Positions 34,391 through 53,967 of a DNA stretch of 64,000 nt are shown here, piece by piece. Position numbers and translations under genes: made by a program. How positions within the stretch are numbered: the first letter of the stretch is position 1; every line of letters begins with the position of its first letter. Below the pieces are notes generated by a model that saw only the letters and a program-made list of their open reading frames with translations, had not been told where the DNA came from and ran no database searches. Source of the DNA: Tepidamorphaceae bacterium (GTDB lineage Bacteria > Pseudomonadota > Alphaproteobacteria > Rhizobiales > JAKSCL01); NCBI GenBank assembly GCA_028289445.1, contig JANQPO010000015.1, positions 1 through 64,000 on the forward strand. Direction: 5' to 3'.

Positions 34391-34768
34391 ATGCAAATGT
34401 CCGAGGCGCGGTTTCCAGGAACCGCGCCGATCGACGCCTATGGCAATGGCGGTTTTCGCTTTGCCGACATGTCCCACAAGGGATCGGTCTTGTGCCTTCC
34501 GGATGCCATCACCGCTTGGCGTCCGGCCACGATGGACGACGTGACGGAGGCCGATTTCGCCGCGGTGTTCCGATCGGACGCGAAGCCGGAGCTTTTGCTT
34601 CTAGGGACTGGTGAGACCGCCGCGCCAATCCCGGAAGCGTGGCGTCTCATGTTTCGCGCCGAGACCGTGCGTCTTGATGCAATGACGACGGGCGCGGCAG
34701 CGCGCACCTACAACCTATTGCTTGCCGAAGGGCGCAGTGTCGGCGCGGCGCTTCTGGCCGTTGACTGA
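34391..34768 (+). CDS. Mth938-like domain protein (NDUFAF3/AAMDC type)
   Basis: A 125-residue single-domain protein of the Mth938-like (DUF498) fold, with the typical IDAYGNGGFRF near the N-terminus and PELLLLGTGETAAPIPE in the middle. The mitochondrial complex I assembly factor NDUFAF3 belongs to the same family. It begins 10 nt after secF and overlaps the next gene, a squalene/phytoene-synthase-like protein resembling NDUFAF6. A role in respiratory complex I assembly is therefore an attractive inference. Confidence 0.82.
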   Translation: MQMSEARFPGTAPIDAYGNGGFRFADMSHKGSVLCLPDAITAWRPATMDDVTEADFAAVFRSDAKPELLLLGTGETAAPIPEAWRLMFRAETVRLDAMTTGAAARTYNLLLAEGRSVGAALLAVD

Positions 34769-35612
34769 CCAGCACCTGGATTCCCTCTGCGCAGACCTTG
34801 TTCGCGAGGGCGATAAGGATCGCTTCCTGGCAACGCTCTTCATCGATGCCGCCAAGCGCGACGCGGTGTTCGCGCTTTACGCTTTCAATCTCGAGATCGC
34901 CCGGCTTCGCGAACTGGTTTCAGAGCCCATCCCGGGCGAAATGCGCCTCCAGTGGTGGCGTGAGATCCTGGACGGAGCGCGTAGCGGCGAGGCCATGGCC
35001 CACCCGGTCGCGTCCGCGCTTCTTAAAGCAATCAGCGACCATAGCCTCCCAGTCGCGCCGCTCCAGGCGCTGATCGAGGCGCGCACCTTCGATCTTTATG
35101 ATGATCCAATGCCCAGCCTGAACGATCTGGAGGGCTATTGCGGCGAGACCGCGTCGGCGCTGTTTCAACTTGTCGCATTGATCCTCAACGATGGCCGCGA
35201 TCCCGGCACTGCGGACGTATCGGGCCACGGCGGCGTGGCCTATGCATTGGCGGGGCTGATGCGCGCCTTGCCCATTCACGCCCGGCGCGGGCAGGTCTTT
35301 CTCCCCGCCGATTTGATTGCCGCGCACAGCGCTGATGTTGCTGACATCCGGTCGGGGCGCGGTACCCCGGCGATACGAGCGCTTTTGGCCAGTATGCGGG
35401 ATATCACTGCGGATCACCTGTCAAAAGCACGCGCCGCGTTCGTTGAAGCACCACACGCGGTCCGGCCTGCCTTTTTGCCGCTTGCCCTCGTCGAGCCGCA
35501 TTTGCGCGCAATGGCACGGACAAGCGGTGACCCGTTCACGGCAAAGGAGGCGTTACCGCAATGGCGCCGGCAATGGGTTCTGTTTCGCGCCGCGCGAAAA
35601 GGCACGTTCTAG
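34737..35612 (+). CDS. Squalene/phytoene synthase-like protein (NDUFAF6 type)
   Basis: A 291-residue all-helical protein of the trans-isoprenyl synthase fold (RDAVFALYAFNLEIARLREL, seen as VFALYAFNLEIARL; MRLQWWREILDG; YCGETASALFQL). The aspartate-rich metal motifs of true phytoene synthases are missing at both expected helices, so it is probably non-catalytic, like the complex I assembly factor NDUFAF6. The start is uncertain (GTG 34737 or TTG 34761), both overlapping the Mth938-like gene. Its stop codon TAG is formed by the left end of the mobile element at 35612. Confidence 0.8.
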   Translation: MSARRFWPLTDQHLDSLCADLVREGDKDRFLATLFIDAAKRDAVFALYAFNLEIARLRELVSEPIPGEMRLQWWREILDGARSGEAMAHPVASALLKAISDHSLPVAPLQALIEARTFDLYDDPMPSLNDLEGYCGETASALFQLVALILNDGRDPGTADVSGHGGVAYALAGLMRALPIHARRGQVFLPADLIAAHSADVADIRSGRGTPAIRALLASMRDITADHLSKARAAFVEAPHAVRPAFLPLALVEPHLRAMARTSGDPFTAKEALPQWRRQWVLFRAARKGTF

Positions 35613-35885
35613 AGCATTTCCAGTGAACATTGGATCATTCTGACGGAGCGATTTTGTGACAAGATCAAGTGAAAGCCCGAAGGGCATATCCGGCGATACG
35701 TTCAAGGGATTTTGCGCAGATATTGGCGCAAAAGCGCCCGTCCCTTCGGGTTTCCGATTGGCGGGCGCCTGACCGCGAATCGGTCTTGCCCGATGCGCCG
35801 GCATCGCGCTGCGACCGTTTCGCGGCCGGATCGCACACGCCAATCGAGAAACAGAACTGACCCAATGTTCACTGGAAATGCTCTA
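35610..35885. mobile_element. 272-bp MITE-like element with TA duplication (element A)
   Basis: The element occupies 35612-35883. It has perfect 22-bp terminal inverted repeats: GAGCATTTCC... at 35612-35633 and its complement at 35862-35883. Imperfect pairing extends to about 35642/35852. It is flanked by TA at 35610-35611 and 35884-35885, as expected for Tc1/mariner/IS630-type targets. No transposase is encoded. The interior holds stems such as TTTTGCGC/GCGCAAAA and CCCGAAGGG/CCCTTCGGG. Removing the element plus one TA restores TTC-TAA at the end of the upstream gene, followed 12 nt later by the ATG at 35899 with GGTGA in between. It therefore split a tight operon. Related short repeats beginning AGAGCAT are common in Rhizobiales. 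Confidence 0.85.
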
Positions 35886-35898
35886 ATCAGGTGATCAC

Positions 35899-37668
35899 AT
35901 GGCTTCTCTAGCAGGCGTGTTCCGAAGACTGATCCAACTGCTGGACCTGAAAACCGGGTTCTGGCGGTTTCCCGCGTCGTTCGTCGTGGCGGCGATCGGA
36001 ACGCTGATCATCGTTTGGGACCAGGCGGTTCGCGACGTTCCAGATCTCTTGTCCGATCAAATCTTTCCCGGTCTGGTGATCGGTTTCTTCGCAGCGATGC
36101 TAACCACGCTGGCTGCCGAAAAGCGAAACGTTCCGGTCCGACGTCACACGATCTATGGCGCCATTGCGTGCGCCATGGGGTTAGCCGCGTTTTTTCTGCC
36201 TGAGCCGTGGCGGCCGGCGCCGACCGAGTTTCCCATCATGACGGCCGTAGGGCTGGCATTTCTCGCAGGCATCGCGGCGTTTCCGATCAAGGCACCCAAT
36301 CTCGATCGGTTCTGGGTCTGGCACGCACGCACGATCGTCTACGGTGTGCTCGCCTATCTTGGCGCCGGTCTGTTCCTCCTCGGCATTGCGGCGGTGGACA
36401 GTGCACTGGACGTCCTCTTCAATGTCGATCTCGGCAATTTCGTCTTCGAGGTCATCTCACCGATCGCCATTCTATTCCTTGCACCGGCGGCATGGCTGTC
36501 GATGATCCCGCGTGTCGCCGATCTGCCGGCCGAAATCGGCAGCGAGGACAATGTGATCCGTCGCGCGGTGTCCGTTCTTGCCCAGTTCGTTGCGGCGCCG
36601 CTGCTTGCCATCTATGCAGTGCTCCTAATCGCATATGCGGCGAAGATCGCGGTCACGGGTGTTCTACCCGTCAATCAAATCGGCTGGATGGTCACCGCAT
36701 TCGGCGTGGTCGGCGCGGCGACGATCCTGGCCCTTTATCCAGATCGCGAGAGCGGAAACAGGTTGGCGCTCATCTTCTGGCGATACTGGTTCGCCGCGAC
36801 CCTAATCCCGATCGCGCTACTGTTCGTCGCGGTCTATGTCCGCATCGCGGCTTATGGGTTGACGGAGGAGCGCGTCCTTCTCGTCTTGGGCGCGGTCTGG
36901 CTATTGACGCTTGGCATCGTCTTCGCCATCAGCCGAAGCGCACGCGATATCCGCTTGATCTCCGGTTTGGCCGGCGTGTTGCTCCTCATCTTCTCCTTTG
37001 GTCCCCAGGGACTGGTTGGCCTGTCGATCGCCAGTCAGGCGACGCGGTTCCAAGCGATGATCACGCAGGCCGGTGGGCCGACCACCAGCTTGAGCGCAGA
37101 GAGCGTCTCCGATGATGTTGCGCGGGAGTTACGCGAGACGATCCGCTATCTCAAAGGTCGCGATGATGACCTATCGCGGCTTCGGGCTACCGCTGAGACC
37201 ATGGGCTGGCCTGGCGACGGTGGCGGGGACGAAACGCTTGAGGCCTTTCTCATCGCCAAGCTTGATCTCAATCGCCTGCCGGCGCGGACACCGACGCACT
37301 CGTTGGTGGCCCATGCTGATTTCGGGGTGGTTGAGGCGGCGAACGGCGCGCGGCTGGTCGGACCTATTCCGGTTCGACGCTGGGTTGACAACCCCGACGA
37401 AGCGGGCGTTCACGGGTTCGGCCTGTCCATCGACGCGTTCAAGCTGACGATCGACCGGCACGGAGAGGCGCGAACCTTGGACCTGCGGGAAGTCGGCGGC
37501 GACCGCGACGGTCGGCTTGCCGCGTTGAGTGATCTGACCACGACGCTCGACTTTCCGGACGCCAAGGTCCACGTCGTCTTCCTGGATTATCGCCTGTCGA
37601 TCGATCGCGACGATACCTATGTTTTCGACGGCGAGATTCTGCTGCTCGAAACACCGAAGGGGCCTTAG
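35899..37668 (+). CDS. DUF4153 family membrane protein
   Basis: A 589-residue protein with about 11-12 membrane helices in residues 20-385 (for example LVIGFFAAMLTTLAAE, VYGVLAYLGAGLFLLGIAAV, LLLIFSFGPQGLVGLSIA), followed by a soluble C-terminal domain of about 190 residues. YVRIAAYGLTEERVLLVLGAVW is the DUF4153 hallmark, quoted here as YVRIAAYGLTEERVLLVLG. The function is unknown. Before element A inserted, it followed the NDUFAF6-like gene by only 12 nt. Confidence 0.8.
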   Translation: MASLAGVFRRLIQLLDLKTGFWRFPASFVVAAIGTLIIVWDQAVRDVPDLLSDQIFPGLVIGFFAAMLTTLAAEKRNVPVRRHTIYGAIACAMGLAAFFLPEPWRPAPTEFPIMTAVGLAFLAGIAAFPIKAPNLDRFWVWHARTIVYGVLAYLGAGLFLLGIAAVDSALDVLFNVDLGNFVFEVISPIAILFLAPAAWLSMIPRVADLPAEIGSEDNVIRRAVSVLAQFVAAPLLAIYAVLLIAYAAKIAVTGVLPVNQIGWMVTAFGVVGAATILALYPDRESGNRLALIFWRYWFAATLIPIALLFVAVYVRIAAYGLTEERVLLVLGAVWLLTLGIVFAISRSARDIRLISGLAGVLLLIFSFGPQGLVGLSIASQATRFQAMITQAGGPTTSLSAESVSDDVARELRETIRYLKGRDDDLSRLRATAETMGWPGDGGGDETLEAFLIAKLDLNRLPARTPTHSLVAHADFGVVEAANGARLVGPIPVRRWVDNPDEAGVHGFGLSIDAFKLTIDRHGEARTLDLREVGGDRDGRLAALSDLTTTLDFPDAKVHVVFLDYRLSIDRDDTYVFDGEILLLETPKGP

Positions 37669-52684: not shown

Positions 52685-53698
52685 ATGAAACTTGCGACAC
52701 TGCGCGACGGCAGCCGGGACGGGCGGCTGGTCGTTGTCTCAAACGATCTGACGAGTTGCACGGCCGTCGGCCATATTGCGCCGACTCTTCAGGCAGCGCT
52801 CGACAATTGGGCATCGCTCGCGCCACGTCTGCAGGAGGTCGCAGCTTCGCTTGAGAGCGGTGCGCAGCCCAGCGAGCGGTTCCGCGAGCACGACGCGCTG
52901 TCGCCCCTGCCGCGCGCCTATCAGTGGGCAGACGGTTCGGCCTACGTCAATCATGTCGAATTGGTCCGCAAAGCCCGCGGCGCTGAGATGCCGGAGAGCT
53001 TTTGGACCGATCCACTGATGTATCAAGGCGGCTCGGATTCCTTCTTGGCGCCGCGCGAGGCGATCAAGATGGCCGACGAGGCCTGGGGGATCGACATGGA
53101 AGGCGAGGTCGCCGTCATCGTCGACGATGTTCCCATGGGCGTGTCCGCCGAGGCGGCGCGCGATCGCATCCGTCTCCTCATGCTCGTCAACGATGTCTCC
53201 TTGCGCGGTCTCATCCCGGCCGAACTCGGCAAGGGCTTCGGCTTCTTCCAATCGAAACCGTCGTCGGCATTTTCGCCCGTTGCCGTCACGCCTGACGAAT
53301 TGGGCGACGCTTGGGACGGCGGGAAGGTGCATCTGCCGCTGAGGGTCGACTTGAATGGGGTGCCGTTCGGCCGGGCCGAGGCCGGCGCTGACATGACGTT
53401 CGATTTCGGGCAGTTGATCGCTCACGCCGCGAAGTCGCGACCGCTGGCAGCCGGCTCGATCATTGGGTCCGGCACGGTCTCGAACAAGCTTGAGGGCGGA
53501 CCGGGCAAGCCGGTTGCCGAGGGCGGTGTCGGCTATTCCTGTATTGCCGAAATCCGCATGATCGAGACGATCCAAAACGGCGAGCCGGCAACGCCATTCA
53601 TGCGCTTCGGCGATGTCGTGCGGATTGAGATGCACGACGGGCAGGGGAAGTCGATCTTCGGCGCGATCGAGCAGACCGTGGAGAAGGCCGATGGCTAG
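52685..53698 (+). CDS. fahA: Fumarylacetoacetate hydrolase
   Basis: A 337-residue FAH-family enzyme, the last step to fumarate and acetoacetate. The metal and active-site stretch includes EGEVAVIVDDVPMGVS and RLLMLVNDVSLRGLIP, then GFGFFQSKPSSAFSPVAVTP, and GSIIGSGTVSNK near the end. It starts 57 nt after hmgA. Its stop TAG (53696-53698) is formed by the TA target plus the first G of mobile element B. Without the element it would end in TAA, overlapped by the start of the MBL-fold gene. Confidence 0.94.
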   Translation: MKLATLRDGSRDGRLVVVSNDLTSCTAVGHIAPTLQAALDNWASLAPRLQEVAASLESGAQPSERFREHDALSPLPRAYQWADGSAYVNHVELVRKARGAEMPESFWTDPLMYQGGSDSFLAPREAIKMADEAWGIDMEGEVAVIVDDVPMGVSAEAARDRIRLLMLVNDVSLRGLIPAELGKGFGFFQSKPSSAFSPVAVTPDELGDAWDGGKVHLPLRVDLNGVPFGRAEAGADMTFDFGQLIAHAAKSRPLAAGSIIGSGTVSNKLEGGPGKPVAEGGVGYSCIAEIRMIETIQNGEPATPFMRFGDVVRIEMHDGQGKSIFGAIEQTVEKADG

Positions 53699-53967
53699 GG
53701 TTAGGACTCATTAATCTCATGCAATTCTGTTTGGCGACAAGTTATTCGGAACAGGTTTGCTCAAGCGCAAGGAAAGGCTGGGGGCCTTTTCGAGCATTGA
53801 GCGGGCCTGGGCCGGTGCTTGCCGCCAAACCCGAAGGGCGCGGCGCCTTTGGCCGCTGAATACGTCGCAAAGGCTTGAAAATGAACCACATTTCCCGCAC
53901 CTTCGCTCCTGTTCAGCGGCCAAATTCGCGCGCGCAGAATGGATGACATTAATGAGTCCTGACCCTA
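53696..53967. mobile_element. 268-bp MITE-like element with TA duplication (element B)
   Basis: The element spans 53698-53965. Its 18-bp ends GGGTTAGGACTCATTAAT (53698-53715) and ATTAATGAGTCCTGACCC (53948-53965) pair with one mismatch. Weaker pairing extends over about 33 bp (both sides reach ATTCTG). It is flanked by TA at 53696-53697 and 53966-53967. No transposase is present. An open frame from TTG 53757 runs through it into the MBL gene. Excision with one TA restores GATGGCTAAGGC, where ATG 53691 would start the MBL gene eight bases before the fahA stop ends, with GGAG at 53680-53683 as ribosome site. Confidence 0.88.

Follow-up and report, generated by a model that had tools for sequence, protein, structure and literature searches.

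A probable IS630-type miniature element with a conserved three-arm fold in the stop codon of an alphaproteobacterial operon gene

Introduction

In the window, which is the whole stretch of 64,000 nucleotides that was analyzed, the genes secD, secF, DUF498 and SQS_PSY lie 5' of a long inverted repeat and a DUF4153 gene lies 3' of it. The locus raises the question whether this repeat is a mobile element that settled in the stop codon of an operon gene or a fixed structure belonging to the operon. A related question concerns its interior. The common view of MITEs is that they are insertion sequences in decay, with interiors of no meaning. We describe here a stretch that is very likely a non-autonomous IS630-type MITE (Tc1/mariner superfamily), moved in trans and provided with a structured core.

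Results and Discussion

Position, ends and insertion junction

The inverted repeat comprises positions 35610–35637 and 35858–35885, i.e. 28 nt including the TA with one mismatch, and contains 22 perfect bases inside the TA. The complete stretch from TA to TA measures 276 nt. A first-pass annotation had placed a TA-flanked element of 272 bp with perfect 22-bp ends here; we found the repeat and both TAs again at the same coordinates. As RNA the element has a predicted folding energy of -152 kcal/mol (z = -10 against shuffles), and as DNA it folds with z = -10.9. For the coordinates of all features see Table 1.

Table 1. Features of the two element loci in the window.
Feature	Position	Strand	Remarks
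Squalene/phytoene-synthase-like gene (SQS_PSY, PF00494)	34722..35612	+	Stop codon holds the insertion; ORF and domain match
Target TA, left copy	35610..35611	.	Together with G35612 gives the TAG that ends the upstream gene
272-bp IS630-type miniature element (probable)	35612..35883	.	Matches model R1 in full (279.6 bits)
Left terminal inverted repeat	35612..35637	+	GAGC-N14-TTGGATCA; 22 bp perfect, 26 with one mismatch
Left arm of conserved fold	35642..35742	.	A3 columns 33-136
Small central hairpin, CC..GG	35743..35749	.	A3 columns 137-147
Right arm of conserved fold	35750..35852	.	A3 columns 148-254
Right terminal inverted repeat	35858..35883	-	Inverted-repeat search
Target TA, right copy	35884..35885	.	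With A35886 forms the TAA of the joined site
DUF4153 gene (PF13687)	35899..37668	+	Displaced from upstream neighbor; GGTGA 35890-35894 is a possible ribosome site
Second element, same architecture	53696..53967	-	Ends TAGGGTYAGGACTCATTAAT; 272 bp with both TAs; in stop codon

The reading frame of the SQS gene ends with TTC-TAG, where the TAG is composed of the target TA and the first G of the element. Joining the flanks at one TA yields TTC-TAA, TCAGGTGATCAC (12 nt) and the ATG at 35899, which is the junction predicted earlier for the excised state. It had also been claimed that the element pushed the DUF4153 gene away from its neighbor. The displacement amounts to 274 bp, with the TA duplicated and the stop kept as TAG. 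A comparison of the junction in relatives, as the first-pass annotation had suggested, gave four genomes with the order SQS-DUF4153-trmFO that carry no element there. In these relatives the gap between SQS and DUF4153 is about 50–150 nt, not 12. A search of 80 named SQS loci with the covariance model R1 (see below) found no element. At the exact site of the window copy no close relative shows an empty allele, and only diverged junctions are available. From the TA on both sides of this copy and its absence at the diverged junctions we infer that it arrived by insertion.

Copies in the genome and distribution of the family

Further copies of the 22-bp ends, for which the first-pass annotation had proposed to search, were not found elsewhere in the genome with up to three mismatches; the interior, however, has many relatives there. 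Within the 64 kb, a 20-nt end of the element gave no other match with up to three mismatches, with 0 expected from shuffles. The copies at C9 and C3 have interiors that are 83% and 80% identical to that of the window element, together with different, self-complementary outer arms. More distant interior relatives occur at C1, C3 and C14, and copies cut by contig ends at C12, C13, C14, C15 (both ends) and C16. In total we count seven full copies and six cut by contig ends, in addition to the element at 53696. The element is short (272 bp), non-coding and present in several copies in this genome. The copies group by their outer arm (TAGAGCATTTCCAGTGAACA, TAGACCCTATCAGGCTTTA, TAGAGCCTTCTGTGAAGAG or TAGAGCATCGGGTGGTACTA), and each arm is complementary to its own opposite end.

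Six contig ends of this genome (L006, L007, L009, L013, L014 and L015) fall inside family copies. The hairpins therefore probably broke the assembly, and the copy numbers are underestimates.

In G013, from another family of bacteria, the copy closest to the window element has halves that are 88% and 86% identical to it and the same type of ends. In this copy (L126 1501-1839), a 66-bp insert with two hairpins interrupts the central loop. Some relatives consist of the left arm alone (L138, L139) or of the right arm alone (L145), so the arms behave as modules. A palindrome of ~45 bp, TAGAGCGG...CCGCTCTA, adjoins an element at L127 (about 1455-1500); it is possible that palindromes this small are the minimal representatives of the same end class.

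To survey the family we built the covariance model R1 on an alignment of 15 family copies (A3). Matches were obtained in 71 of 297 Hyphomicrobiales genomes (E<=1e-6) and, among the genomes sampled from the remaining orders of Alphaproteobacteria, in 24 (E<=1e-10); as the model is derived from the family's own copies, these E-values are rough. The distant matches (about 100–150 bits) score nearly equally on both strands, which makes their orientation and common descent less certain. We delimited 96 copies, 85 of which measure 264–277 bp. TAGAGC is the commonest end class, next to TATACC and TAGGGT. One branch is frequent on plasmids of Rhizobium leguminosarum/etli (399 places in 180 records). 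The window element itself, used as a query in a sequence search, gave a single weak plasmid match, in Rhizobium rhizoryzae. At the Rfam gathering score the window contains only two tRNAs, and ten loci gave no match. We found no account of this family in the papers searched; an earlier partial description, in the RIME work of 1995, is possible.

A conserved three-arm fold

In the fold, an outer stem encloses the left and right arms, with a small central hairpin between them. RNAalifold predicted 96 pairs for A3, of which 53 have changed on both sides. In A3, 93.6% of the cells are paired, compared to 77.4% in shuffled alignments and 33–41% with the partners slid, the structure being derived from the same alignment. 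Copies within genera that are 92–100% alike differ at 2.9% of the paired and 10.6% of the unpaired sites, and among these copies we observed 86 two-sided changes where 9 were expected. One-sided changes among the near-identical copies number 472. Elements of the TAGAGC, TATACC and TAGGGT classes have this fold in common, and their junction motifs CATTCTG, CGCCCG and GGGTTTC are conserved. Outer arms are swapped as matched pairs, while the interior stays alike. The pairing of the core is kept across Alphaproteobacteria.

Two explanations for this conservation were weighed. First, the core could be kept because the structure works for the element, either in the form of a folded RNA or as a hairpin extruded from the DNA. 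It might then serve as an RNase III target through which the element is excised from host transcripts, as an insulator or as an aid in transposition. This fits with the narrow length range of the copies, with the lower divergence and the excess of two-sided changes at paired sites, and with the occurrence of one fold behind different end classes. Correia elements, which are analogous repeats, are cut by RNase III in mRNA (PMC10969869). A strand-specific RNA signature, however, was not seen: G-U and A-C mismatches are about equally frequent outside two fixed positions of the outer stem. Sense and antisense settings between tandem genes are likewise equal (21 and 21). We regard a working structure as quite possible, though short of probable.

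Secondly, the paired changes could be mutational, if template switching at replication corrects long imperfect palindromes and thereby re-matches their arms. The joint replacement of both outer-stem arms over a similar interior and the lack of a strand bias agree with such a process. On the other hand, template switching would fix neither the total length nor the three junction motifs, and many single mismatches persist in near-identical copies, as the ratio of one-sided to two-sided changes shows. As an explanation of the whole pattern it appears somewhat doubtful.

Ends, IS630 copies and the source of the transposase

In genomes that carry the family, IS630 copies (PF13358, 1052–1087 bp) have ends of the form C-TAGAGC or TAGAGT, N14, YGAATC, and sit in C-TA..TA-R targets. 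Other IS630 copies have TATACCA ends, like the TATACC class of elements. The elements thus share with autonomous IS630 copies of the same order the same bipartite layout of the ends, with TAGAGC or TATACCA. Over end positions 7–30, elements and IS630 copies match at 9.8–10.2 of 24 positions compared to 6.2 after shuffling. The ends of IS630 copies in the same genome are no closer than those in other genomes (10.2 vs 9.8 of 24), and no specific parent IS was therefore identified. Judged by their ends, the family members would be moved in trans by transposases of the IS630 type.

A search of 28 genomes that carry the family found PF13358 in 17. In the genome studied here (G000) we detected neither a PF13358 match nor a transposase homologue; a matching transposase in the same genome is not strictly required for such an element. 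The window copy is therefore probably immobile now, and the absent transposase fits a relic population that lost its transposase. A point counter to the MITE assignment is the core itself: if the element were an ordinary MITE that arose by deletion, the retention of a structured core of 200 nt would be unexpected.

Empty sites and mobility

Using joined flanks as the query, we found base-exact empty sites with a single TA in sister species at six sites (L203/L286, L202/L300, L214/L288, L183/L287, L224/L289 and L247/L290-L292). In Rhizobium beringeri, a copy present in strain TP6 is missing from strain TP66, which has CTAA at the site. Family members have thus moved recently, as follows from empty sites between sister species and between strains. 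For these other copies, both the duplicated TA and the clean single-TA site are at hand. The first-pass annotation had read the repeat as mobile and had named as refuting case a structure fixed in all relatives, with no further copies or empty sites. This case does not hold, given the existing relatives of the element, the empty sites of other copies and the four SQS-DUF4153-trmFO junctions without it. That the window element belongs to this family follows directly from its full match to the model.

In R. beringeri the annotated gene of a dienelactone hydrolase (L326 665-1519) extends 19 nt into an element. The C-terminus of the protein reads LSRAFPG with the element and LSK in TP66 without it.

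Target sites and stop codons

The target is YTAR in 75 of 87 cases: 40 CTAG, 18 CTAA, 9 TTAG and 8 TTAA. Such a preference for TA within CTAG is known for IS630 (Tenzen and Ohtsubo 1991, as cited in PMC2170065). At 33 of the 87 insertion points the TA belongs to an in-frame stop codon, compared to 40 of 405 background YTAR sites (10%); for this count the flanks were joined and genes called anew by a simple script, and some copies come from related genomes and are not independent. For L202, L203, L183 and L247, four of the six sites found empty in sister species, the alignments show that the intact allele has its stop codon exactly at the insertion point.

The TA-GAGC ends recreate TAG on either strand. 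Since GAGC stands at the start of the element, TAG is remade whenever the TA of a TAA or TAG stop is the target, and the protein stays intact. This habit accounts for insertions inside operons such as SQS-DUF4153.

The excess of stop codons could arise from purifying selection on random TA insertions alone, with no targeting. Insertions within genes would not persist, and GC-rich genes contain few YTAR sites. The excess persists, however, if only intergenic YTAR sites serve as the background (odds ratio 3.6, p 1e-5). It could still be explained if copies at stop codons, where the TAG is rebuilt, survive better. We consider the chances of selection without targeting to be evenly balanced.

A second element in the window

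The second element has TAGGGT ends and shares the fold and the CATTCTG motif with the first; beyond these, the two have little sequence in common (59% over 151 nt). Its insertion point is the stop codon of a gene for a fumarylacetoacetate hydrolase. At the joined site this gene and the start of the next one, which codes for a metallo-beta-lactamase-fold protein, overlap (GCCGATGGCTAAGGC); the insertion parts this next gene from its ATG. In-frame ATGs are available in the right end of the element, at 53943 and 53952. The metallo-beta-lactamase-fold protein would then begin with MTLMSPDP instead of MA.

Effect on the host transcript

The first-pass annotation had considered that the internal stems may terminate or process the transcript. 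Termination finds no backing, as the outer stem is not followed by a T-run and a terminator scan gave no notable match; terminator and promoter scans at the window element yielded nothing convincing. Elements between co-directional genes occur equally often in both orientations (21 and 21), a pattern that speaks against a strong terminator acting in one direction. RNase III might process the element transcript, by analogy with Correia elements.

A very stable fold in a transcribed gap between two co-directional genes would also be expected if the operon had a regulatory RNA or terminator that is fixed in place and not mobile. Relatives of the element at unrelated sites, the contradicting empty sites of other copies, orthologous junctions that lack the element, and the absence of a T-run and of an Rfam match make this very improbable. 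As a candidate, the fixed operon terminator was rejected on account of the empty sites, the orthologous junctions and the missing T-run.

Proposed mechanism

Based on the ends and the target sites we propose the following mechanism. A transposase supplied in trans would read the bipartite ends, which are composed of a terminal GAGC, about 14 variable bases and TTGRAYC. It would cut the element out and insert it at TA, preferably within YTAR/CTAG. Between the ends the element would bring along a core of constant length with two long arms and the small central hairpin. At the locus studied here SQS would keep its C-terminus after the insertion, and DUF4153 would be moved 274 bp downstream.

As a more speculative extension, the fold and not the ends may be the conserved identity of the family. 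During its spread through Alphaproteobacteria the core would have taken on new outer arms to suit different IS630-type transposases, and TA-GAGC would let it settle harmlessly in stop codons, so that operon genes tolerate between them an insert structured as RNA or DNA. We put this forward as a tentative picture.

Significance and comparison with known systems

The family combines a three-arm interior of constant length, which covaries across a whole bacterial class, with outer end parts that vary most, even though these are the parts a transposase should read. With a constant core and variable ends, selection on the core of a MITE becomes testable. The stop-codon habit together with a TAG-rebuilding end is a simple way to enter genomes densely packed with genes and leave their proteins whole. 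Annotation of gene ends and starts may also be misled by the elements, as illustrated by the R. beringeri gene that runs into an element and by the new start codon supplied in the window.

Correia elements have TA flanks. The ends of the window element are presumably unlike the Correia consensus. Palindromic intergenic repeats of the same order are also represented by RIME1 and RIME2 (Rhizobium-specific intergenic mosaic elements). The Correia elements (CREE/NEMIS) of Neisseria are MITEs with long inverted-repeat ends and are often located near genes (PMC10969869). They differ from the present family in end sequence and size, and RNase III processing, established for Correia elements, is a possibility here.

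In Bradyrhizobium, the palindromic repeats Br-REP1 and Br-REP2 are found in 3'-UTRs, and Br-REP1 may have flanking palindromes (PMC5082802). They are short (about 20–40 nt) and have another consensus, and the passages of that source used here report no TA ends or insertion evidence for them. REP/RAYT repeats are palindromes of 20–40 nt with a GTAG or CGTC tag (PMC3733652). This assignment was rejected for our elements, which have 264–277 bp and TA-GAGC ends.

RUP from Streptococcus pneumoniae is a 107-bp MITE with IS630-Spn1-like ends and a conserved predicted fold (PMC3049150). Like the family described here, it is a small non-autonomous repeat that combines IS630-like ends with such a fold. 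RUP, however, occurs in other bacteria and is shorter and AT-rich, whereas the present family has three arms with very variable outer arms. The IS630 family (Tc1/mariner superfamily) shares with our elements the TA duplication, the CTAG preference and the TAGAGC-N14-YGAATC or TATACCA ends. In contrast to IS630, the window element has 272 bp, lacks a transposase gene and contains a structured core that is not derived from the IS630 copies seen. It is a real mobile element and represents a new and unusually structured branch of IS630-type MITEs.
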